In this document: one piece after another, positions 7,256 through 58,397 of the stretch
Layout: each line of letters opens with the position of its first letter
Position numbering within the stretch: position 1 is the first letter of the stretch
Notes under the pieces: generated by a model
What the model saw: only the letters and a program-made list of their open reading frames with translations
What the model was told of the DNA's origin: nothing
Databases searched by the model: none
Assembly (NCBI RefSeq): GCF_022843985.1
Contig: NZ_JALHMP010000001.1
Coordinates: 186,001 to 250,000 of the forward strand
Source: Phreatobacter sp.
GTDB taxonomy: Bacteria > Pseudomonadota > Alphaproteobacteria > Rhizobiales > Phreatobacteraceae
Reading direction: 5' to 3'
DNA length: 64,000 nucleotides
Program-made: the position numbers and the translations under genes

Positions 7256-7684
7256 TTACCCCACCACCTCAAGGCCCATGGACCGGGCCGAGCCTTCGAT
7301 CATCGACGCAGCCGATTCGACCGTGTCGCAGTTCATGTCGACCATCTTCACCTTGGCGATCTCGGCGATCTGGCCGCGCGTGATCTTGCCGATAAAGCCC
7401 TTGCCGGGGGTCGTGTGGCCCTTGTCGATCTTGGCGGCCTTCTTCACCCAATAGGTGACAGGCGGCTGCTTCATCTCGAAGGTGAAGGAGCGGTCCTGGT
7501 AGGCGGTGATGACGACCGGAATCGGCATCCCCTTCTCCATCTGCTGGGTCTTCGCGTTGAAGGCCTTGCAGAATTCCATGATGTTGAGGCCGCGCTGACC
7601 GAGAGCGGGACCGATGGGCGGGGCGGGGTTAGCGGCCCCGGCCGGCACCTGCAGCTTGATGAATCCGACGATTTTCTTCGCCAT
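7256..7684 (-). CDS. rplK: 50S ribosomal protein L11
   Basis: This encodes L11, 142 residues, part of the GTPase-associated centre. The Pro-rich N-domain ([21 protein letters not shown], the thiostrepton-site region) and the C-terminal rRNA-binding domain ([23 protein letters not shown]) are intact. The frame is open upstream to 7777, but [10 protein letters not shown] at 7684 behind AGGAGG with about 5-6 bases spacing is clearly the start. The nusG-rplK gap upstream holds two GC-rich hairpins. Confidence 0.97.
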
Positions 7685-7806
7685 GATGTCCTCCTGACGC
7701 GCCCTGTATCGGGCGGCCGGTTGGGTTTCGTGGTCGGGTTCGAAGCGGATGGCGAACCGCCGCTCCTCGCCTCCCACGGGTGAAGGAGGACCGGCGAACC
7801 GCCCCT

Positions 7807-7857
7807 CCGCCGCCAGCCCCAGGGGGCGGCGGTTGTCGCTGCCGGCCGATGGCCGGC
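7807..7857 (-). promoter_or_regulatory. Two GC-rich hairpins in the nusG-rplK gap
   Basis: Seen in sequence: CCGCCGCC/GGCGGCGG (7807-7814 with 7825-7832) and a perfect GCCGGCC-GAT-GGCCGGC stem (7841-7857). No T-run follows on the minus strand. Their place, just after nusG and before rplK, is where the L1-responsive leader of the L11 operon lies in other bacteria. They may be that leader or simply read-through RNA structure. Confidence 0.3.
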
Positions 7858-7869
7858 GGCACGTTCAGG

Positions 7870-8400
7870 TCAGAGCTTGTCGACCTGACTGAATTCCAGC
7901 TCCACCGGCGTCGGCCGGCCGAAGATCGAGACGGCGACCTTGACGCGGGCGCGGCCGTCGTCGACCTCCTCGATGAAGCCCTCGAAGGAGGCGAAGGGAC
8001 CGTCGTTGACACGGACCTTCTCGCCGACCTCGAAGGTGATCGTCGTCTTGGGACGGTCAACGCCCTCCTGGACCTGCTGGGCGATGCGCATCGCCTCGGC
8101 CTCGGGGATCGGCATGGGCTTCTTGTCGGCACCGAGGAAGCCGGTGACCTTCGGGGTGTTCTTGATCAGGTGATAGGCCTGATCGGTCATGTCCATCTTC
8201 ACCAGGACATAACCGGGGAAGAACTTGCGCTCGGTGTCGATCTTGCGGCCGCGTCGCACCTCGGTGACGCGCTCCTTCGGCACCAGAATGTCCTCGAACA
8301 GTTCCGACAGGCCGCGCTGGGCCGCACCCTCACGAATCGCCTCGGCCACCTTGTTCTCGAAATTCGAATAGGCGTGGACCACGTACCACTGCTTCGCCAC
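7870..8400 (-). CDS. nusG: Transcription termination/antitermination factor NusG
   Basis: This encodes NusG, 176 residues, which binds the beta' clamp helices and links RNA polymerase to Rho and the ribosome. The NGN domain (AKQWYVVHAYSNFENKVAEAI, RKFFPGYVLVKMDM) occupies about residues 1-115. The C-terminal KOW domain has VGEKVRVNDGPFASFEGFIEEVD at about residues 125-147. The start is a GTG (8398-8400) with GAGGGAG upstream. It lies 12 bases after secE, so the two are co-transcribed. Confidence 0.97.
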   Translation of the reverse strand: MAKQWYVVHAYSNFENKVAEAIREGAAQRGLSELFEDILVPKERVTEVRRGRKIDTERKFFPGYVLVKMDMTDQAYHLIKNTPKVTGFLGADKKPMPIPEAEAMRIAQQVQEGVDRPKTTITFEVGEKVRVNDGPFASFEGFIEEVDDGRARVKVAVSIFGRPTPVELEFSQVDKL

Positions 8401-8412
8401 GGACGGGCTCCC

Positions 8413-8610
8413 TCAGCTGCCGAGCGAAAGGAGCGTCTGCACGCCCCAACGGATCACCGTATCGGCGATGAAAAAGAAGATCGCCGAGACGATCATGAAG
8501 ATCACAACCATGATCGAGGAGATGCCGACCTCCTTGCGCGTGGGCCAGGTGACCTTGTTGGCCTCCTGGCGGACCTGCTGCATGAATTCGACAGGATTGG
8601 GTTTCGCCAT
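8413..8610 (-). CDS. secE: Preprotein translocase subunit SecE
   Basis: This encodes the small SecE subunit of the SecYEG channel, 65 residues, the short single-spanning form usual outside Enterobacteria. The amphipathic helix with the conserved EANKVTWPTRKEV motif (about residues 16-28) precedes one membrane span (SIMVVIFMIVSAIFFFIADTVI). The start MAKPNPVEFM at 8610 is chosen over an upstream in-frame ATG at 8712, because the extension is unlike SecE and overlaps the promoter region. It is first in the secE-nusG-rplKAJL-rpoBC operon. Confidence 0.95.
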   Translation of the reverse strand: MAKPNPVEFMQQVRQEANKVTWPTRKEVGISSIMVVIFMIVSAIFFFIADTVIRWGVQTLLSLGS

Positions 8611-8733
8611 GGTGAGAATCCGGACAGGGCCGCACACCGCTCCCACCCATGAGGGTGAAAGCCGGCGCGTCGGCCCGGAAAAAGGAAACGCGTCCCGCCG
8701 GATGTCCGTCACCGGGCCGGCAGGGAGTGGCGT

Positions 8734-8762
8734 CTGCTACCCGAAACGGGACGGGTCGTCAA
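8734..8762 (-). promoter_or_regulatory. Promoter of the secE-nusG-rpl-rpoBC operon
   Basis: On the minus strand a TTGACG -35 (8757-8762) is separated by exactly 17 bases from a TAGCAG -10 (8734-8739), about 125 bases upstream of secE and downstream of the tuf/tRNA-Trp terminator. Spacing and hexamers fit the alphaproteobacterial housekeeping consensus. Confidence 0.6.
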
Positions 8763-8787
8763 GGAAAGCCGGCCAGGGGCTGCAACG

Positions 8788-8820
8788 AGAAAGGCCCGGC
8801 GCTTGCCGCACCGGGCCTTG
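8788..8820 (-). terminator. Terminator after tuf / tRNA-Trp
   Basis: An 8-bp stem (GGCCCGG core pairing with CCGGGCC) with an 11-base loop is followed on the minus strand by TTTCTC. It sits just after the tRNA-Trp 3' end and before the secE promoter, so it separates the two transcription units. The T-tract is short, so read-through is possible. Confidence 0.6.
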
Positions 8821-8827
8821 TCGAAAT

Positions 8828-8903
8828 TGGCAGGGGCTGGGGGATTCGAACCCACGACCTGCGGTTTTGGAGACCGCCGCTCTACCAGCTGAGCTAAACC
8901 CCT
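8828..8903 (-). tRNA. tRNA-Trp (CCA anticodon)
   Basis: Read on the minus strand, a full cloverleaf starts AGGGGTTTAGCTCAG. It has D-loop GCTGGTAGAGC, anticodon loop CTCCAAA with CCA, the T-arm GTGGGTTCGAATCCCCC, and a 3' end whose CCA tail is encoded (8828-8830). It lies between tuf and secE, the arrangement common in alphaproteobacteria. Confidence 0.96.
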
Positions 8904-8953
8904 AGAGGAGAGCCGAGGATATAGTCCGCCCCGGCCGTCCGATCAATCATTGA

Positions 8954-10144
<1,191 letters not shown>

Positions 10145-10498
10145 CGGTCGTGGTCCTTCGGCTGCCAAAATACGGGCGTGCCCGCGGTGGGCGGTCGGTT
10201 ACGGGTTTTCGCGGCGCTGTTCAAGTGCAAATTGGCAGCACCGCCGCGACATGGCGCGCGGGCGAAGCGCCGACAGGCGGCCGCAAGCCTTCGGCAGCGC
10301 GTGCCGCCGCGCCCAAGCAGTTGATCAGGAAGGCGATGATGGCGATCCCGGTCGCGCCGGCGCCGTGCTTGCGTCGCGGCGGCCGCCTCTTCAAGATCGT
10401 CGCGCCGGCCACGCCGGTCGCTCTATCGCCTCGCTGCCGTCCGCGTCCCGCAAGGCCGCAGACCGGCTCCCATGCCCTTCCACCGCCACGGACCCGCC
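10145..10498. other. Divergent intergenic region between tuf and cysG
   Basis: No gene is supported in these 354 bases. A weak minus-strand promoter for tuf may be TTGAAC (10219-10224), a 17-base spacer and TAACCG (10196-10201). The rest is GC-rich DNA. An in-frame ATG at 10472 could start cysG 27 bases earlier. Confidence 0.4.
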
Positions 10499-11965
10499 AT
10501 GACCGCGCCCGCCGCGCCCCGCGGCACCAGGCCCCCCCGTATCGGCGCCATCGCGACCCTTCCGCTGTTCCACAAGCTGCGGGGGCGCCGGGTGGTGCTG
10601 GCCGGCGACAGCGACGGCGCGGCATGGAAGGCCGAGCTGCTGGCGGCGACCGGCGCCGACCTCCACGTCTTTGCTCCGGATGACGCGGCGCGGTTCGGCG
10701 ACCTGGCCGCGGCCGAAGGCGGTACGGTCAATGTCCATGGCCGGCGCTGGATCCCGGCCGATCTCGACGAGGCCGCCCTCGCCGTCGCCGATGTCAGTTC
10801 GGACGCGGAGGCCGCAGCCTTCGTTGCGGCGGCCCATGCCGCGGGCGCCGTCGTCAATATCGTCGACCGCCCGGCCTTCTGCGATGCCCAGTTCGGCGCG
10901 CTCGTCAACCGCTCGCCGCTGCTCGTCGCCATCTCCACGGACGGCGCGGCGCCCGTCTTCGGCCAGGCCATCCGTGCGCGTATCGAGGCGCTCCTGCCCC
11001 CGGGCCTGCAGGCGTGGGCGCAGGCGGCGCGCGACTGGCGCGCGCGCGTGCAGGCGCGCGAGGCGCCCTTCGCCCTCCGCCGCGCCTTCTGGCAGCGCTT
11101 CACCGACCGCGCCCTCGCCGATCCGGACCGGCCGCCGGGCGAAGCCGACCGTGATGCGCTGATGGCCGATCTCGACCGGCTCGAGGCGGCGCCGCGCCGC
11201 GGCCGGGTGCTGCTGGTCGGCGCGGGGCCCGGCGACCCCGACCACCTCACCCTCAAGGCGCTGCGCGCGCTGCAATCGGCAGACGTCATCCTCTACGACA
11301 ACCTGGTGACGCCGGAGGTGCTGGAACTGGCCCGGCGGGAGGCGCGGCGGGTCGCGGTCGGCAAGGTCGGCCATGGTCCCTCGGTCAGCCAGGCCGACAT
11401 CAACGCGCTGATGATCCAGCTCGCCCGCGACGGCCAGACGGTCGTGCGGCTGAAGAGCGGTGACCCCGCCATTTTCGGCCGCGCCAACGAGGAGATGGCG
11501 GCGTGCCGGAGCGCCGGCATCCAGCTTTCCATCATTCCGGGCATCACTGCCGCGCAGGGCGCCGCGGCCTCGCTCGGCCTGTCCCTCACCGATCGCGATT
11601 TCGCCCAGCGGCTGCAATTCGTCACCGGCCACAGTCGCAAGGGGGAACTGCCTGATTCGATCAACTGGACGGCCGTCGCCGACCCGGCCGCGACCACCGT
11701 GATCTACATGCCGCGGCACACGCTGCGCCGCTTCGCCGCAAGGGCCCTCGACTCGGGCCTCGCCCGGTCGACGCCGGCGCTCGCCATCGCCTCAGCGACA
11801 CGTGCCGAAGAGGTGCATGTCACCGCTGCGATTGCCGATCTGCCCGACCTGGTGGAAGGCCTTCCGGCCGCCCTCCCCGTCCTCGTCATCGTCGGCGAAG
11901 CGGTCCGCGGTCTCGCGAATGCCACGGCGGATCTGCCCGTCGCCGGGATCGACATGCAGGCGTGA
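10499..11965 (+). CDS. cysG: Siroheme synthase CysG (trifunctional)
   Basis: This encodes a 488-residue fusion enzyme that makes siroheme, the cofactor of sulfite and nitrite reductases. The N-terminal third is the precorrin-2 dehydrogenase/ferrochelatase module (LPLFHKLRGRRVVLAGDSDGAAWKAELL). Its nucleotide-binding glycines are somewhat degenerate (GDSDGA). The C-terminal half is the SAM-dependent uroporphyrinogen-III C-methyltransferase (VGAGPGDPDHLTLKAL, VRLKSGDPAIFGR, IPGITAAQGAA). The start could be this ATG or the one at 10472; neither has a strong ribosome site. No sulfite-reductase genes adjoin it, so it stands alone between tuf and tRNA-Gly. Confidence 0.9.
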   Translation: MTAPAAPRGTRPPRIGAIATLPLFHKLRGRRVVLAGDSDGAAWKAELLAATGADLHVFAPDDAARFGDLAAAEGGTVNVHGRRWIPADLDEAALAVADVSSDAEAAAFVAAAHAAGAVVNIVDRPAFCDAQFGALVNRSPLLVAISTDGAAPVFGQAIRARIEALLPPGLQAWAQAARDWRARVQAREAPFALRRAFWQRFTDRALADPDRPPGEADRDALMADLDRLEAAPRRGRVLLVGAGPGDPDHLTLKALRALQSADVILYDNLVTPEVLELARREARRVAVGKVGHGPSVSQADINALMIQLARDGQTVVRLKSGDPAIFGRANEEMAACRSAGIQLSIIPGITAAQGAAASLGLSLTDRDFAQRLQFVTGHSRKGELPDSINWTAVADPAATTVIYMPRHTLRRFAARALDSGLARSTPALAIASATRAEEVHVTAAIADLPDLVEGLPAALPVLVIVGEAVRGLANATADLPVAGIDMQA

Positions 11966-45881: not shown

Positions 45882-45964
45882 GGCAAATTTCAATCGGTTT
45901 GCCCCCTCGTCCCCTCGCCCCGGCGGCGCTAGGCTCGCCGCCAACAAGGTCGGGGAGGACCACA

Positions 45965-46864
45965 ATGACCAAGCAGAAGATCGGTTTTGTCGGTGTCGGG
46001 CTGATGGGCCACGGCATGGCCAAGAACATCGTCGAGAAGGGTTTCCCCCTGACCGTGATGGCCAACCGCAACCGCGCGCCGGTGGAGGATCTCGTGTCGC
46101 GTGGCGCCACCGAAGCGACGAGCGCGAAGGCGGTGGCGGAGGCCAGCGACGTGGTCTTCATCTGCGTCACCGGCGCGCCACAGGTGGAGGCCGTGGTGAA
46201 CGGGCCCGAGGGCCTGAGGGCTGGCGCGCATCGGGGTCTGACCATCGTCGATTGCTCGACGTCGGAGCCGACGCTCACCCGCAGGCTGGCCGGGGACCTG
46301 GCGCCGCTTGGCGTCACCTTCCTGGATGCGCCGCTGTCCCGCACGCCGAAGGAGGCCTGGGAGGGCAAACTCGACGTCATGACGGGGGGCGCCGAGGCGG
46401 ATCTGGCGCGCGTTCATGACGCCGTCGCCTGTTTCGCCGGTCGCATCGTCCATGTCGGCCCGGTCGGCGCCGGCCATACGATGAAGATCGTCAACAATTT
46501 CATCTCGATGGGCTATGCGGCGCTCTATGCCGAGGCCCTCGCCGTCGCCAAGGCCAACGGCGTCGCACCCAAGGCCATGAACGCCGTGCTGTCGGGCGGA
46601 CGCATGGATTGCGGCTTCTATCAGACCTTCTTCAAGTACGTCATCGAACGTGATGAAAATGCTCACAAATTCACGCTCGCAAATGCCCACAAGGACATGC
46701 GTTACTGCGCCGCCATGGCGCAGGCCTCGGGGATCGCCAATCCGATGGGCAATGCGGTGAAGAACTATTTCGCCATGGCCGAGGCCCAGGGCAATGGCGG
46801 CAAGTATGTGCCGATGCTCTCCGATGAGGTGGCCCGCTGGAACGGGGTGAACCTGCTGGAATGA
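45965..46864 (+). CDS. NAD(P)-dependent oxidoreductase, 3-hydroxyisobutyrate dehydrogenase family
   Basis: This encodes a 299-residue beta-hydroxyacid dehydrogenase. The N-terminal Rossmann fold has GFVGVGLMGHGMAKNIVEKGF (GxGxxG). The substrate motif is LDAPLSRTPKEAWEGKL with the serine, and the catalytic lysine lies in GHTMKIVNNFISMG. GGGAGG precedes the ATG. Substrate unknown; relatives act on 3-hydroxyisobutyrate, tartronate semialdehyde, threonate or sugar acids. The divergent LacI gene suggests sugar-acid-responsive expression. Confidence 0.85.
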   Translation: MTKQKIGFVGVGLMGHGMAKNIVEKGFPLTVMANRNRAPVEDLVSRGATEATSAKAVAEASDVVFICVTGAPQVEAVVNGPEGLRAGAHRGLTIVDCSTSEPTLTRRLAGDLAPLGVTFLDAPLSRTPKEAWEGKLDVMTGGAEADLARVHDAVACFAGRIVHVGPVGAGHTMKIVNNFISMGYAALYAEALAVAKANGVAPKAMNAVLSGGRMDCGFYQTFFKYVIERDENAHKFTLANAHKDMRYCAAMAQASGIANPMGNAVKNYFAMAEAQGNGGKYVPMLSDEVARWNGVNLLE

Positions 46865-50423: not shown

Positions 50424-51251
50424 TCAGGTGATGCGCCTGACGCTGGCGACAATCTCCTCGGGCTCGAACAGCCGCTTCCAGTCCGGCTTGAGGATCGTGT
50501 CCTTGCCGAAGACGATGGCCTTGTTGCAGGCGTCCGAGAACACGCCGTCGATCTCGCGGAAGGTCACGGCGGCGAGGATGTTCATGTGGCCGAGCAGGAA
50601 GTCGCGCGCCGCCTCGCGCGGCACGCCGCGGCGAATGGCCTCTTCCATCGCCTCCCGCATGGCATCGAGCAAGGTCGCACAGACTGTTTCCGACAGGCCG
50701 GGCTCGAGGATGGCCATCTGCTCGACGGTGACCCGATGCGACCGCATCACCGGCGCCCAGATCGCGCGCGCGACCTCCTCGCCCAGCGCGTAATGCGCCT
50801 CCGGCCCCTGCATCAGGGCACTGACGATGTGCTGCTTGGCGGCCACACCGCCGAAATGGTCGGACTTCGCCGCCGGGTCGGTCTCGTCATTGAAGATCGG
50901 CGGGTGGCAGGGATGGGTGATGAAATAGGTGATGTCCGCGCGCGCCGGCAGGTGGCCGGCATGGGGTGATGCGGCATCGAGGATGATGACGATCGTGCCC
51001 GGGGCGAGTTTCGGCACGAGGGTCGCGGCGACACTGCCGATGGCGGTATCGGGCACGGCGAGGACGACCACGGGGGCGCCGTCGATGGCGGCATCGGCCT
51101 CGAGGCAGGCGATGCCATAGGCCCCCTGGAACCGGTCACGCCCCGCGGCGCTGACCTCGACCGGGCGCGTCTCGAAACGCGACGCCATCAGGTTGCGGCC
51201 GATCCGCATCCCCATTTTTCCACCCGCCCCGAACAATGCGATTGCCGTCAT
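50424..51251 (-). CDS. apnO: Dehydrogenase with 6-phosphogluconate-dehydrogenase-like C-domain, probable D-apionate oxidoisomerase
   Basis: This encodes a 275-residue protein: an N-terminal Rossmann domain (IALFGAGGKMGMRIGRNLM, GxGGxMG) and an all-helical C-domain (EQMAILEPGLSETVCATLLDAMREAMEEAIRRGVP). The HPCHPPIFNDE stretch is likely part of the active site. Such proteins beside a RuBisCO-like protein and a DUF1537 kinase match ApnO, which converts D-apionate to 3-oxo-isoapionate. Identity is inferred from family and neighbourhood. It is divergent from that operon across a 128-base gap. Confidence 0.65.
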   Translation of the reverse strand: MTAIALFGAGGKMGMRIGRNLMASRFETRPVEVSAAGRDRFQGAYGIACLEADAAIDGAPVVVLAVPDTAIGSVAATLVPKLAPGTIVIILDAASPHAGHLPARADITYFITHPCHPPIFNDETDPAAKSDHFGGVAAKQHIVSALMQGPEAHYALGEEVARAIWAPVMRSHRVTVEQMAILEPGLSETVCATLLDAMREAMEEAIRRGVPREAARDFLLGHMNILAAVTFREIDGVFSDACNKAIVFGKDTILKPDWKRLFEPEEIVASVRRIT

Positions 51252-51308
51252 CGGCCGAACTCCCAGTCTGCCCACCATGGCCGGACTCGTTCCATGCCGC
51301 GGCCATGA

Positions 51309-51336
51309 TTGTCAATCTGGTATGATGACCTTATGA
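51309..51336 (+). promoter_or_regulatory. Candidate promoter/operator of the RuBisCO-like operon
   Basis: TTGTCA (51309-51314) and TTATGA (51331-51336) are 16 bases apart. Between them lies GGTATGATGACC (51319-51330), a GGT-N6-ACC symmetric element of the kind GntR/FCD regulators bind. The regulator encoded at the end of the operon would be the natural ligand. Visual evidence only. Confidence 0.4.
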
Positions 51337-51379
51337 GTAAGCGATCCTTCACCGGCGAACAGGAACGGCGGACGTGGAC

Positions 51380-52636
51380 ATGGACCAGCGCATCGAGGCG
51401 GATTACTGGCTCGAAACATCGGGCGACCCGCGGCGAACGGCCGATATCATGGCGGGCGAACAGTCCAGTGGCACCTTTGTCGCCGTGCCGGGCGAGACCC
51501 CGGAACTGACGGCAAGGGCCGCCGCCCGGATCGAGGCTCTGGAACTCCTCGACATCGCGACCACCCCGTCCCTGCCCTCCGCCCGGCAGAGCGTGGCCGG
51601 ATCGGGCCGTTATGCCCGGGCGCGGGTGACGCTGTCCTGGCCGCTGACGACCCTCGGTCCGTCACTGCCGAATCTCATGGCCACGGTGGCCGGCAACCTC
51701 TTCGAGCTGGCGCCGGTCACCGGCCTGCGCCTGCTCGACATCCGGCTCCCTCCCGCCTTCGCCACCGCCTATCGCGGGCCGCAGTTCGGGGTCGCCGGAA
51801 CGCGCCGGCTCTCGGGCGTCGACCAGGGGCCGCTGATCGGCACCATCGTCAAGCCGAGCGTCGGCTTCGGGCCGGCCGAGACTGCCGACCTGGTTGCCAA
51901 GCTGGCCCGCGCCGGCATCGATTTCATCAAGGACGACGAGTTGCAGTCTGACGGGCCGCTTTGCCCCTTCGAGGCCCGCGTCGACGCGGTCATGGCGGTC
52001 CTCGAAGCCGAGGCCCAGCGCCGCGGCCGGAAGGTGATGTATGCCTTCAACCTCACCGGCGACCTCGACCAGATGCGCCGCCGGCACGATCATGTGCTGG
52101 CACGCGGCGGCACCTGCGTGATGGCCAGCCTCAACGCGGTCGGCCTCGTCGGCATGATCGAACTCCGCCGCCATTCGCAACTGCCGATCCATGCCCACCG
52201 CAACGGCTGGGGCTACCTGTCGCGGGCGCCCGGCCTCGGCTGGGACTACCGCGCCTGGCACAAGCTCTGGCGTCTGGCGGGAGCCGACCACATGCATGTG
52301 AACGGCCTCGCCAACAAGTTCAGCGAGGGCGACGACAGCGTCATCGCCTCGGCCCGCGCCTGCGGGGAGCCGCTCTTCGCCGACCGGCCCGACGCCACCA
52401 TGCCGGTCTTCTCGTCCGGGCAGACGGTCCGGCAGGCGCCGGGAACCTTCGCTGCGCTCGGGACAACGGATCTCATCTTCGCCGCGGGCGGCGGCATCAT
52501 CGCCCACCCCGACGGCCCCGCCGCCGGTGTCGGCGCGCTGCGCGAGGCCTGGGAGGCGGCGGTTGCCGGCGAGGACCTCGACCTCGCCGCGCGGTCCCGG
52601 CCGGCGCTCGCCGCAGCGCTCCGGTATTTCACATGA
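51380..52636 (+). CDS. oiaX: RuBisCO-like protein, probable 3-oxo-isoapionate-4-phosphate decarboxylase
   Basis: This encodes a 418-residue form IV RuBisCO-like protein. The carbamate/metal site is intact: K184, D186 and E187 in DFIKDDE (spinach K201, D203, E204), 26 residues after K158 (spinach K175). Loop 6 lysine (VNGLANKF), SSG and AAGGGI phosphate contacts are also present. The residue equivalent to spinach K177 is serine, so it is not a carboxylase for ribulose bisphosphate. With the adjacent DUF1537 kinase it fits OiaX (or OiaT), acting on 3-oxo-isoapionate 4-phosphate. A GTG two codons upstream (51374) is an alternative start. Confidence 0.75.
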   Translation: MDQRIEADYWLETSGDPRRTADIMAGEQSSGTFVAVPGETPELTARAAARIEALELLDIATTPSLPSARQSVAGSGRYARARVTLSWPLTTLGPSLPNLMATVAGNLFELAPVTGLRLLDIRLPPAFATAYRGPQFGVAGTRRLSGVDQGPLIGTIVKPSVGFGPAETADLVAKLARAGIDFIKDDELQSDGPLCPFEARVDAVMAVLEAEAQRRGRKVMYAFNLTGDLDQMRRRHDHVLARGGTCVMASLNAVGLVGMIELRRHSQLPIHAHRNGWGYLSRAPGLGWDYRAWHKLWRLAGADHMHVNGLANKFSEGDDSVIASARACGEPLFADRPDATMPVFSSGQTVRQAPGTFAALGTTDLIFAAGGGIIAHPDGPAAGVGALREAWEAAVAGEDLDLAARSRPALAAALRYFT

Positions 52637-54003
52637 CCCCGTTGCCCGCGGGACCGCTGGTCGCCTTCTACGGGGACGACTTTACCGGATCGTCCGCGGT
52701 GATGGAGGTGATGGCCTTTGCCGGCCTCAGCGCCGTCATGTTCCTCAGCCCGCCAACGCCCGCGCGTCTCGCCGCCTTCGCGGACCGGCGCTGCATCGGG
52801 ATTGCCGGGATCGCCCGCTCCCGCCCGCCGGACTGGATGGACGACCACCTGCCGCCGCTCTACGCGGCGCTCGGCCGGATCGGCGCGCCCCTGGTCCACT
52901 ACAAGGTCTGCTCGACCTTCGATTCGGCGCCGCAGATCGGTTCCATCGGCCGGGCGATCGATCTCGGCGCACAGGCCTTCCCTTCAGGCTGGATCCCGCT
53001 CGTCGTCGGCGCACCGGCGCTGGAGCGCTATCAGGCGTTCGGCCACCTCTTCGCCGGCCTTCACGGCACGGCCCATCGCCTCGATCGCCACCCCGTCATG
53101 GCGCGTCATCCCGTGACGCCGATGGACGAGGCGGATCTCCTCCGCCACCTCGGCCGGCAAACCGATCGCCGCATGGGCCTGATCGACTTTCCGTGCCTCA
53201 AGCGCGGCGACGGCGACCGAAAGCGCCGGGAACTTGCGGGAGACGATGCGCCGGTCATTGCCATCGACGTGCTCGACGAGGAGACACTGGCGGCCGCGGG
53301 GGCCCTGCTCTGGCAGGCCCGCGCCGAAGGCCGTTTCGTCGCGGGATCCCAAGGCGTCGAATATGCGCTCGTCGCCCATTGGCGCGAGGCCGGGCTGATC
53401 CCGCGTGAAGCGCCAGTACCGACGATGGCGGCGGCGGAGCGCATCGCGGTGGTCTCCGGGTCCTGCTCCCCCGTCACGGCCGGGCAGATCGCCCATGCCG
53501 AAGCCCACGGCTTCACCTCGCTCCGGCTCGATGTCACCCAGGCGGTCGATGAAGGGCCATGGGATCGCGAGATCGGGCGGGCGGTGGAACAGGCCAGGTC
53601 CATTGCCGCGGCCGCGTCGCCGCTCGTCTATACGGCGCGGGGGCCTGACGATCCGGCCGTGGCCGCCCTGGCCGAGGCGTGTCGCAGCGCCGGCGCCGAT
53701 CCTGCCCGCGTCAATGACCGGATCGGCGCCGGGCTCGGCCAGGTGCTCGGAGCTTTGACCGAGGATTGTGGCCTGACCCGCGCGGCGATCGCCGGCGGGG
53801 ATACGTCCGGACATGCCGCCCTGGCCCTCGGAATCGATGCCCTCGAGGCCATCGCCCCGCTGGCTGCCGGGTCGCCGCTGTGCCGGGCCCATGCCAACCT
53901 GCCGGGGCGCGACGGGCTCGAACTCGCCCTCAAGGGCGGGCAGATCGGCGCGCCGGATTTCTTCAGCGCCGTTCGCGCCGGGAGACGCCTCGATGCCGCC
54001 TGA
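52633..54003 (+). CDS. oiaK: Four-carbon acid sugar kinase (DUF1537), probable 3-oxo-isoapionate kinase
   Basis: This encodes a 456-residue kinase of the DUF1537 family: N-domain with FYGDDFTGSSAVMEVM (substrate side) and C-domain with VVSGSCSPVTAGQI and the ATP-binding AIAGGDTSGHAALALG. Family members phosphorylate threonate, erythronate, denaturing sugar acids or 3-oxo-isoapionate; the RuBisCO-like partner favours the last. The ATG overlaps the previous stop by four bases (ATGA), and its 3' end overlaps the regulator gene by 11 bases, so the three genes are one operon. Confidence 0.78.
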   Translation: MTPLPAGPLVAFYGDDFTGSSAVMEVMAFAGLSAVMFLSPPTPARLAAFADRRCIGIAGIARSRPPDWMDDHLPPLYAALGRIGAPLVHYKVCSTFDSAPQIGSIGRAIDLGAQAFPSGWIPLVVGAPALERYQAFGHLFAGLHGTAHRLDRHPVMARHPVTPMDEADLLRHLGRQTDRRMGLIDFPCLKRGDGDRKRRELAGDDAPVIAIDVLDEETLAAAGALLWQARAEGRFVAGSQGVEYALVAHWREAGLIPREAPVPTMAAAERIAVVSGSCSPVTAGQIAHAEAHGFTSLRLDVTQAVDEGPWDREIGRAVEQARSIAAAASPLVYTARGPDDPAVAALAEACRSAGADPARVNDRIGAGLGQVLGALTEDCGLTRAAIAGGDTSGHAALALGIDALEAIAPLAAGSPLCRAHANLPGRDGLELALKGGQIGAPDFFSAVRAGRRLDAA

Positions 54004-54739
54004 CCCGCGCCCTTCGAGCCCGCCCCCGTCTCCGGAACCCATCCAGCGCCGCAAGCTCTTCCACGAGGTGATGGACCGTCTGATGGCGCGGATCCGCGCC
54101 GGCGAATTCGCACCCGGCTCGCAGTTGCCCTCCGAGCGCGAACTGATGGATGCCTATGGCGTGGGACGACCGGCCATCCGCGAGGCCTTCCAGCAGCTCG
54201 AGCGGTCCGGGATCGTGACGATCAGCCATGGCGAGCGCGCCAGGGTCGTGCTGCCGACAGCCGCCGCCATGATGCACACCATCACCGATGCGGCGCGCTA
54301 TCTGCTCGACGTCGAGCCGCAGACGCTCGATCACCTGAAGGAAGCGCGGGCCTTCCTCGAGACGGGGCTCGCCCGCCTCGCGGCGGAAAGGGTCGAGCCC
54401 GCCGGGCTCGCCCTGCTCCAGGCCCGCCTCGACGAGCAGCGGCAGGCGGGACTGGAGGACTTCCTGCGTTGCGACATCGCCTTCCATCGCCAGATCGCGG
54501 CCATGGCCGGCAACCCGATCTTCCCGGCGGTGGTCGAGGGGCTTCTGGCATGGCTCAGCGATCACTATACCGCTCTCGTCCGCGCCCCCGGCGTGGAGAA
54601 TGTCACGCTGCAGGAGCACCAGTGCATTCTCGAGGCCATCGCCGCGCGGGACCCGGCCCGGGCGGCAACGGCGATGTCCGATCACCTCTACCGCGCCAGC
54701 GCGCTCTACCGGCACGGCGCGGCGGATCGGCGGGCCTAG
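53993..54739 (+). CDS. GntR-family regulator, FCD subfamily
   Basis: This encodes a 248-residue regulator: N-terminal winged helix (GEFAPGSQLPSERELMDAYGVGRPAIREAFQQLERSGIV, about residues 36-75) and a C-terminal FCD domain (about 95-230) with the metal/effector ligand residues (CDIAFHRQIAAMAGN, EHQCILEAIAARD). FCD proteins sense sugar acids and other carboxylates, so it probably controls the operon it ends and the divergent dehydrogenase. GGGAGA precedes the ATG inside the kinase gene. Confidence 0.88.
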   Translation: MPPDPRPSSPPPSPEPIQRRKLFHEVMDRLMARIRAGEFAPGSQLPSERELMDAYGVGRPAIREAFQQLERSGIVTISHGERARVVLPTAAAMMHTITDAARYLLDVEPQTLDHLKEARAFLETGLARLAAERVEPAGLALLQARLDEQRQAGLEDFLRCDIAFHRQIAAMAGNPIFPAVVEGLLAWLSDHYTALVRAPGVENVTLQEHQCILEAIAARDPARAATAMSDHLYRASALYRHGAADRRA

Positions 54740-57469: not shown

Positions 57470-58397
57470 GCCGGCTTCCGCGACGCGCGCCGCCGTCTCC
57501 GGAGGCTCCCGTCCATGCATCGCCACCTGACGATCGCCGCCTCACTGACGCTGACGACTCCCGTCGCATCATGGACAGGGTTCTGCGGATCGCCCCCTCC
57601 ACCTGGCTCGAACATGCCCGCCGCAAGGCTGACCCCGAACTTCGCTCAACAAGGGCGAAGGTGAATGAACGGCTGTCCGCGGAGATCCTCCGGGTCCACA
57701 GGAAGAAGTTTGGCGTCTACGGCGCACGGAAGGTCTGGCTGCAGCTGAACCGCGAGGGTTTCAAGGTCGGCCGCGACCGGGTGGCCCGGCTGATCGTCGA
57801 GAATTCCAGCGGCCGGCTTCGCCAACAGGCTACCCTCATGCCGGAGCATCTCCGTTCCAAGGCGGCCATCTCGCCACCGACAGTGGTGCCGCCACCCAGG
57901 CCACGAAGACGTCCTCCAAAAACGGGCACCCCTCCGCGACAGCCTGATCGGCCGAACTGGGGACTTTTACTTCGGCGCTTTTGGGCAAGTTCAACCGATA
58001 TTGACACCGAACGAGCCCATCTCCTGTCAGCGCGCCGCCCGTTGTCCGCAACGGTGGCAAGGAGGGGCAGGCATCCACCGCCGCTTTGGGGCCCGAACGG
58101 AACGCCTTTCGGCTCCCGGCGACGTGGCTGAAGGCCGAAACACCGAAGGCGCGCGAAGGCTCCGCCCTGGTCTTTCCGCAGGTGAATGAACGGCAAACAG
58201 ATGCGGCAGAATGACGCGGAGAGGGCGCGATTTGATCTCAGCCGTCGCCTTGCCCGGCCCATCCGGTGAGAGTGGACCTCCCGAGCCTGCTTGCGGCGCC
58301 CGCCGAGCCGTCGGAGTCTTGGGCGCCACGCTGCGGAAGGGATTGACCCGCCATCTCAATCTCGACCACACAAGTGAGTCATCTTTGGGGGCCTGCC
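57470..58397. other. Gene-poor stretch containing an IS3 remnant
   Basis: These 928 bases separate the glycan-related pair from the peptide transporter operon. The only recognisable piece is the IS3 transposase fragment at 57568-57813. From there to 58397 both strands have open frames of 80-180 codons (for example minus 57717-58262), but none has a family motif or convincing ribosome site. It looks like decayed or recombined DNA at a junction. The promoter of the transporter operon must be in the last 200 bases. Confidence 0.5.
57568..57813 (+). pseudogene. IS3-family transposase (OrfB) fragment
   Basis: About 82 codons read like the start region of IS3-family OrfB: LRIAPSTWLEHARRKADPELRS, then LSAEILRVHRKKFGVYGARKVWLQLNREGF, then VGRDRVARLIVENSSG, which is the HTH_21-like block before the DDE domain. 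The start, the whole catalytic DDE part and OrfA are missing, and no terminal inverted repeats were found, so it is a dead remnant. It marks past transposition next to the transporter operon. Confidence 0.75.

Follow-up and report, generated by a model that had tools for sequence, protein, structure and literature searches.

Two reactions of RuBisCO-like proteins (RLPs) on 3-oxo-isoapionate 4-phosphate have been published, decarboxylation and transcarboxylation/hydrolysis, and RLPs from A. radiobacter K84 and X. autotrophicus ATCC BAA-1158 are named for them (PMC6302742); two other papers give further accounts of these apionate-pathway results (PMC11747546, PMC10176493). Here we analyse a four-gene cassette containing an RLP gene, situated at positions 50424–54739 of a 64,000-nucleotide stretch (hereafter the window; contig NZ_JALHMP010000001.1, positions 186,001–250,000, forward strand) of the genome of Phreatobacter sp. 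GCF_022843985.1. This cassette probably represents a minimal OiaT-type D-apionate catabolic unit, i.e. one of the transcarboxylation/hydrolysis kind. The products of the hydrolase route are 3-phosphoglycerate and glycolate, and the decarboxylase (OiaX) route requires TIM-like and RpiB-like isomerases. In 2018, Carter et al. reportedly described the D-apionate pathway of X. autotrophicus as one of ApnO, OiaK and an RLP transcarboxylase/hydrolase. The initial annotation of the window had proposed D-apionate catabolism by such families, with decarboxylation to L-erythrulose phosphate; it was right on the families and the likely substrate, and probably wrong on the product. The features concerned are:

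50424–51251, minus strand: ApnO-like dehydrogenase of 275 amino acids with NAD_binding_2 and PGDH_C domains (Pfam PGDH_C 244 bits; PDB 5t57, E 5.5e-118)
51307–51337, plus strand: conserved intergenic block with a promoter-like TTGTCA-17-TATGAG overlapping an operator-like TCTGGTATGATGACCTTAT (site 51316–51334; from alignment and matrix)
51380–52636, plus strand: RLP of 418 amino acids, putatively OiaT-type (from Pfam, OiaX model score, PDB 3nwr, tree and residues)
52633–54003, plus strand: DUF1537 kinase of 456 amino acids, 3-oxo-isoapionate kinase-like (NCBIfam OiaK 604.6 bits; Pfam SBD_N and NBD_C)
53993–54739, plus strand: GntR/FCD regulator of 248 amino acids, NanR subfamily (NCBIfam NF003011, 283 bits, cut-off 260)

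The DNA and Pfam confirmed the four genes at these places, and the families first assigned to them held in Pfam and NCBIfam. Domain scores exceeded the cut-offs in the RLP (RuBisCO_large 209 bits, RuBisCO_large_N 32), in the kinase, which has the two-domain DUF1537-type architecture (SBD_N 162.5, NBD_C 127), and in the regulator (GntR 71, FCD 88); the dehydrogenase, its PGDH_C score likewise above the cut-off, combines, as expected of ApnO, an NAD-binding N-terminal domain with PGDH_C and linkage to RLP and kinase genes. The coupling noted earlier is likewise present: the kinase start codon overlaps the RLP stop codon as ATGA, the regulator gene overlaps the end of the kinase gene by 11 nucleotides, and the dehydrogenase gene diverges on the opposite strand. 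For the dehydrogenase the listed open reading frame begins at 51278, and a start at 51251 (MTAIALFGAGG) matches homologues better; the RLP starts with ATG at 51380, with GTG at 51374 as an alternative. The RLP is the sole PF00016 match in the 4.33-Mb source genome, and the kinase reached 174 bits on the NCBIfam 3-oxo-tetronate kinase model (cut-off 350).

A contig search, of which the best 80 matches were kept, supplied loci for comparison; frequencies given here refer to near relatives, not to the whole family, and, as locus lengths differ, absences are soft. Membership in OiaX was judged by the NCBIfam model NF042437 (curated cut-off 700 bits), on which the window RLP scored 455.2 bits, and the RLPs of loci L011 (789 bits) and L131 (R. 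etli CFN42, 784 bits) passed. With three RLPs annotated as oiaX (L132–L134) and five taken in by close identity (L012 and L135–L138, the matches of L012 to L131 and L135–L138 being 78–94% identical), these two make up ten OiaX rows. Genome G245, tentatively taken to be X. autotrophicus Py2 (ATCC BAA-1158), the source of the published transcarboxylase/hydrolase, was among the 41 of 391 genomes matched in an RLP search at E 1e-100; its single match shares 63% identity with the RLP of the window and also lies below the OiaX cut-off (430 bits).

Placement in a tree with OiaX, a check proposed at the outset, put the window RLP outside that group: in a carefully built 43-row tree the ten OiaX rows came together with 100/100 support at the end of a long branch. 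A split supported at 97/97 had OiaX, the archaeal RLP of L139 and those of L006, L007, L008 and L010 on one side and the window RLP, its relatives and the RLP of G245 on the other. The window RLP grouped firmly only with its own genus and Bosea sp. WAO (100/100), and Bosea was the nearest row outside the genus in a larger, quick tree of 96 rows, which omits L038 (internal stop), L001, L002 and L028 (copies), the fetched loci L111–L115 and the weakly Rubisco-like L014–L021. The RLP of L057, from a metagenome-assembled genome labelled Akkermansia muciniphila, groups with Limnohabitans rows (support 99 with L055), so that its contig is probably a binning error.

In Rubisco numbering, the window RLP retains E60, T65, N123, K175, K201, D203, E204, H294, R295, H325, H327, K334, S379, G381, G403 and G404, with the substitutions W66F, K177S, H298W, L335F and G380S. 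The intact metal site (K184, D186 and E187 of the protein, equivalent to K201, D203 and E204) and the serine at the K177 position (S160) had been described correctly; the carbamylatable site is found as K, D and E in 105/105 rows and, being common to OiaX and Rubisco, is not specific. The residues at sites 60, 123, 325, 327, 335 and 379 are E, N, H, H, F and S in the window RLP, as opposed to D, G, Q, Q, Y and G or C in OiaX. Among window-type rows (at least 57% identity, 88 of the 105), N123 occurs in 87, H327 in all 88 and S379 in 87, and six of the seven rows belonging to neither group retain N, H and S; none of the ten OiaX rows has any of the three, where G, Q and either G or C stand instead, and all ten carry D at E60, Q at H325 and Y at L335. 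This signature separates OiaX decarboxylases from window-type RLPs, many of which bear no more specific annotation than 'ribulose-bisphosphate carboxylase large subunit family protein', and, if it mirrors mechanism, such RLPs could serve as a test bed for Rubisco residues of carboxylation/hydrolysis as against enolisation. A nearly full-length homologue of known structure, PDB 3nwr (E 3.4e-129), differs from the window RLP in having Asn in place of Ser at the K177 position, as do L007, L008 and L010.

A genome search for erythrulose-phosphate isomerases, also proposed earlier, gave no RpiB match in the source genome and a single TIM match. Their absence is expected because the hydrolase route requires none, and the missing isomerase, once taken to mean that the pathway might be incomplete or novel, loses that meaning on an OiaT route. 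RpiB was likewise absent from 17 of 25 genomes that had been picked out of the 80 loci for having a window-type RLP together with ApnO, and six of these 17 have ApnL and/or Gfo genes in the locus (L030, L031, L034, L037, L060 and L064); ApnL and ApsD are names that we apply to the unannotated protein of 545–653 amino acids and the Gfo/Idh/MocA dehydrogenase of such clusters.

In the proposed route, imported D-apionate would be converted to 3-oxo-isoapionate by ApnO-like oxidation with hydroxymethyl migration, and the DUF1537 kinase would add a phosphate at C4 of the product. The RLP would then release the carboxylate as CO2, leaving an enediolate, and re-add CO2 to the adjacent carbon in a Rubisco-like manner; hydrolysis of the resulting carboxyketone would give 3-phosphoglycerate and glycolate, which could enter central metabolism without erythrulose-phosphate isomerases. 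Use of glycolate by the host is likely. It should be noted that the window carries, at 45962–46864 and 3.6 kb from the cassette, a gene resembling those for HIBADH/tartronate-semialdehyde reductase (191/341 bits), with similar genes (40–42%) in the RLP loci L066, L070, L086 and L089; it may be related to glycolate or glyoxylate.

The cassette is not a chance assembly, since it recurs in two further genomes of the genus (G003 and G009, 91–98% identity per gene) and in Bosea sp. WAO (66–84% per gene). Locus context makes D-apionate, the substrate first suggested, the best reading. The 96 RLP rows include 55 with ApnO (31 alone, 24 with ApnL and/or Gfo/Idh/MocA), three with ApnL only, 13 with a short-chain dehydrogenase (SDR) and/or LysR without ApnO, 22 unassigned and the three of the window's genus; counted otherwise, ApnO and/or ApnL/ApsD-type genes occur in 58 of the 88 loci whose RLP is at least 57% identical to that of the window, and PGDH_C (ApnO) homologues in 58 clustered loci. 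Annotated examples of fuller clusters, from Microvirga, Rhizobium Q54, Shinella and P. sprentiae, comprise a sugar ABC transporter, a Gfo/Idh/MocA dehydrogenase, an ApnL-like protein, GntR/NanR, RLP, kinase and a PGDH_C protein. The window PGDH_C protein is 62% identical to that of the fuller apiose cluster of P. sprentiae, 66% to that of G245 and 84% to that of Bosea, and the regulator has relatives of 45–70% identity in the apiose-type loci compared.

Transporter genes divide along the same lines. Sugar-ABC ATPase genes (gene cluster 14) fall in ApnL/Gfo loci in 14/14 cases, and MFS genes (by eye; gene cluster 16) occur in 12 loci, ten of them labelled ApnO-only; a plasmid of the archaeon Halalkalicoccus sp. 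FCH27 (L139, 8001–13025) carries an RLP–kinase–ApnO–GntP permease cassette. MFS, TRAP and GntP genes beside ApnO-only loci are what would be expected if ApnO-only cassettes import the acid. Haloarchaeal plasmids of several genera carry the family of this archaeal RLP.

The 128-bp divergent region shows little conservation against Bosea beyond one block, 51307–51329, with 23 consecutive columns identical in the window, the two genomes of its genus and Bosea, and holding TTGTCA and CTGGTATGATGAC. The window site scored 28.7 bits on a matrix built from 24 sites (the window's own left out, the nearly identical Bosea site included), with 9.1 bits for the next best in the window. We counted the pattern TGGTATRNT or TGGTATRA up to 300 bp upstream of cluster genes in 68 of 93 rows (the 96 minus the window, L003 and L004), namely 42 with NanR and ApnO, 13 with ApnO only and 13 of SDR/LysR type; the other 25 rows are 22 unassigned and three ApnL-only. 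It was found in 16/20 ApnL/Gfo-bearing clusters with NanR (shuffled mean 1.2, maximum 5), in 11/22 ApnO-only clusters with NanR (1.0, 4), in 3/13 ApnO loci without a NanR match (0.5, 4, thus not above the shuffled maximum) and in 0/13 SDR/LysR loci (0.5, 3). Some sites resemble an inverted repeat TGGTAT-N7-ATACCA (e.g. L102), and no inverted repeat common to the four intergenic regions of the window, the genus pair and Bosea was found. GC-rich words made up most of the k-mers enriched in the upstream regions, and the motif was taken from the conserved block instead. The block may hold a promoter, TTGTCA-17-TATGAG as read by eye, and an operator, and the GntR/FCD protein would control the divergent promoter through the TGGTAT-type site near 51316. 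The shared site links the window regulator to those of apiose-type loci, which on its own does not prove the effector. As a candidate operator, the TGGTAT half-site could be used to seek apionate regulons and unlinked transporters.

A number of results weigh against an OiaT-type D-apionate unit. Among the window proteins the NCBIfam scan found no match to an ApnO or OiaT model, the RLP lies below the OiaX cut-off, and the kinase (604.6 bits) lies below the cut-off of 700 of the OiaK model, NF042436. The RLP shares the side of G245 at the 97/97 branch and is not its sister; the next fork (81/62) weakly places it beside a Bradyrhizobium RLP without ApnO, and its weak neighbours in the 96-row tree include SDR-type rows. 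No residue cleanly splits ApnO-type from SDR-type RLPs, the lowest overlap, 0.27, falling on a variable position. RpiB is present in 8 of the 25 genomes with a window-type RLP and ApnO, and isomerase genes adjoin only 2 of the 10 OiaX genes, so that their co-location is a weak hallmark of OiaX clusters and not strictly defining. No GlcD-like protein reached the cut-off in the source genome (460/568 bits) or in seven other genomes searched. Half of the ApnO-only NanR loci (11/22) lack the site, and its pattern was chosen post hoc, after the window/Bosea block had been seen. The search for apnL, suggested with the initial annotation, found no homologue in the source genome (one query, no positive control), and no close ApsD homologue was found there either (one query; best Gfo 26%); neither the ApsD nor the ApnL of a complete D-apiose pathway was recovered from it, on a single query each. 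Finally, no transporter could be assigned among the TRAP and MFS candidates of the source genome.

Three routes to a transporter were followed. A TRAP importer was sought through the substrate-binding protein of Bosea, whose best relatives in the source genome were 41% identical, with a 40% paralogue in Bosea itself; a Herbaspirillum-type MFS gave only a 27% partial match in the source genome; and 20 stretches around TRAP substrate-binding proteins (6–7.5 kb each) contained no site, the best scoring 13.0 bits as against 17.2–35.2 for known sites and up to 14.3 for the shuffled window. Open reading frames read by eye showed no transporter adjoining the cassette in common between the window, G003 and G009: branched-chain-type ABC genes lie upstream in G003, with other genes in between (by eye); in G009, ABC-type genes begin about 1.9 kb past the regulator (by eye), the other flank lying outside the contig; and in the window a peptide-type ABC set begins at 58395 (binding protein by Pfam). 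Related loci vary further. In G009 (L114, C238, 6238–12443), two ABC-transporter sets, one phosphonate-like, lie 3' of the cassette (by eye) and are not there in the window or G003. L112 (G002, 8292–11753) has another RLP (55%) and kinase (39%) with a PGDH_C dehydrogenase 70% identical to that of the window, amid LysR- and TRAP-like genes (partly by eye), i.e. a differing RLP–kinase pair around ApnO. In L113 (G006, 7379–11595), the RLP is 3nwr-like (53%) and has Asn at the K177 position; with it lie genes for a kinase, a TRAP-type binding protein and, by eye, a VOC-like protein, and the 20 kb read gave no ApnO match.

One unlikely reading regards the window-type RLPs as one recarboxylating class that adds back the CO2 of its own substrate and then hydrolyses, serves ApnO- and SDR-type pathways alike and represents living non-autotrophic Rubiscos, the Phreatobacter cassette, with no assignable transporter, using an as yet unassigned acid or an internal source; N123, H327 and S379 would then be retained because these RLPs recarboxylate an enediolate. 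That the cassette acts on some other branched or related sugar acid is improbable. The lack of ApnL or a close ApsD on one query each, the lack of an adjoining transporter common to the three genomes of the genus, and an RLP and kinase under their cut-offs would fit such a substrate; against this, ApnO–RLP loci without ApnL/ApsD in the stretches read are common (31/96, G245 included), often with MFS, TRAP or GntP genes, and the operator-like site is common to the window and the fuller apiose clusters.

A D-hamamelose/hamamelonate-type pathway is a highly unlikely role for the cassette. The hamamelose-pathway RLP of Kim et al. in 2018 is reported to work as an oxygenase whose products are 3-phosphoglycerate and glycolate, and sister clusters sharing this RLP family and kinase, in which ApnO is missing and an SDR and/or LysR occurs (13/96 rows, e.g. 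in Azospirillum and R. etli NXC12), may belong to it, SDR/LysR in place of ApnO/NanR being the presumed mark; the RLP columns give no clean split between the two types. The cassette, however, combines an ApnO-like gene with a NanR-type GntR and contains no SDR or LysR, the operator-like site is absent from all 13 SDR/LysR loci, and on chemical grounds the tertiary alpha-hydroxyl of hamamelonate would not be oxidisable by ApnO chemistry. Two papers cite Kim et al. 2018 for the hamamelose RLP (PMC8914248, PMC10176493).

The product first proposed, L-erythrulose phosphate from an OiaX decarboxylase, is very doubtful and was not borne out. It could appeal to OiaX being the best model match and to the R. 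etli OiaX cluster, whose PGDH_C protein, 70% identical to that of the window, is closer than that of G245 (66%); cut-off, clade and residues nonetheless argue against an OiaX identity of the RLP, and the source genome has no RpiB and one TIM. MtnW (DK-MTP 1-phosphate enolase; 123 bits, cut-off 514) and a CO2-fixing or type III RuBisCO (rubisco_III 220, cut-off 497) were ruled out by their NCBIfam scores.

Among known systems close to the cassette, that of Bosea sp. WAO (L029) shares its gene order and divergent layout (RLP 79%, ApnO 84%, kinase 66%, GntR 70%) and the identical 23-nucleotide block; its kinase reaches 589 bits on OiaK, and it differs in the TRAP transporter genes that adjoin its ApnO. 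The OiaX-type D-apiose operon on p42f of R. etli CFN42 (L131) also combines NanR, RLP, a DUF1537-type kinase (OiaK score 473) and a PGDH_C dehydrogenase, but its RLP, 45% identical to that of the window, passes the OiaX cut-off, and the operon also encodes TIM- and RpiB-like isomerases together with a ribose-type ABC transporter and a Gfo/Idh/MocA dehydrogenase; TIM- and RpiB-like isomerase genes are present in G033 too. An R. etli RLP has been proposed as a biotin-independent carboxylase (PMC8914248). This protein (RHE_RS26630 of L131) is annotated oiaX, and, since it passes the OiaX cut-off and sits in a D-apiose-type operon, a CO2-fixing role looks doubtful. The OiaX-annotated RLPs of L132 and L133 (plasmids of Agrobacterium salinitolerans and Rhizobium gallicum) lie with aldo/keto reductases, a 3-keto-5-aminohexanoate cleavage protein and a lactonase-like protein, with no annotated PGDH_C dehydrogenase within 9 kb, and perhaps represent another pathway under the OiaX name.

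The operon of G245 runs MFS (by eye)–ApnO–RLP–kinase with a divergent LysR gene. Its RLP, ApnO and kinase are 63, 66 and 51% identical to those of the window, its kinase passes OiaK (812 bits), and the 20 kb read holds no ApnL/ApsD marker; the window differs in its divergent ApnO, in a NanR-type GntR instead of LysR and in having no adjoining MFS. The OiaT-type pathway of X. autotrophicus uses the same three enzyme families as the window. The pathway type is thus already known, and the window would hold a version of it without an obvious transporter, its cassette pointing to one of the two published apionate RLP branches, on which the missing isomerase is no puzzle.

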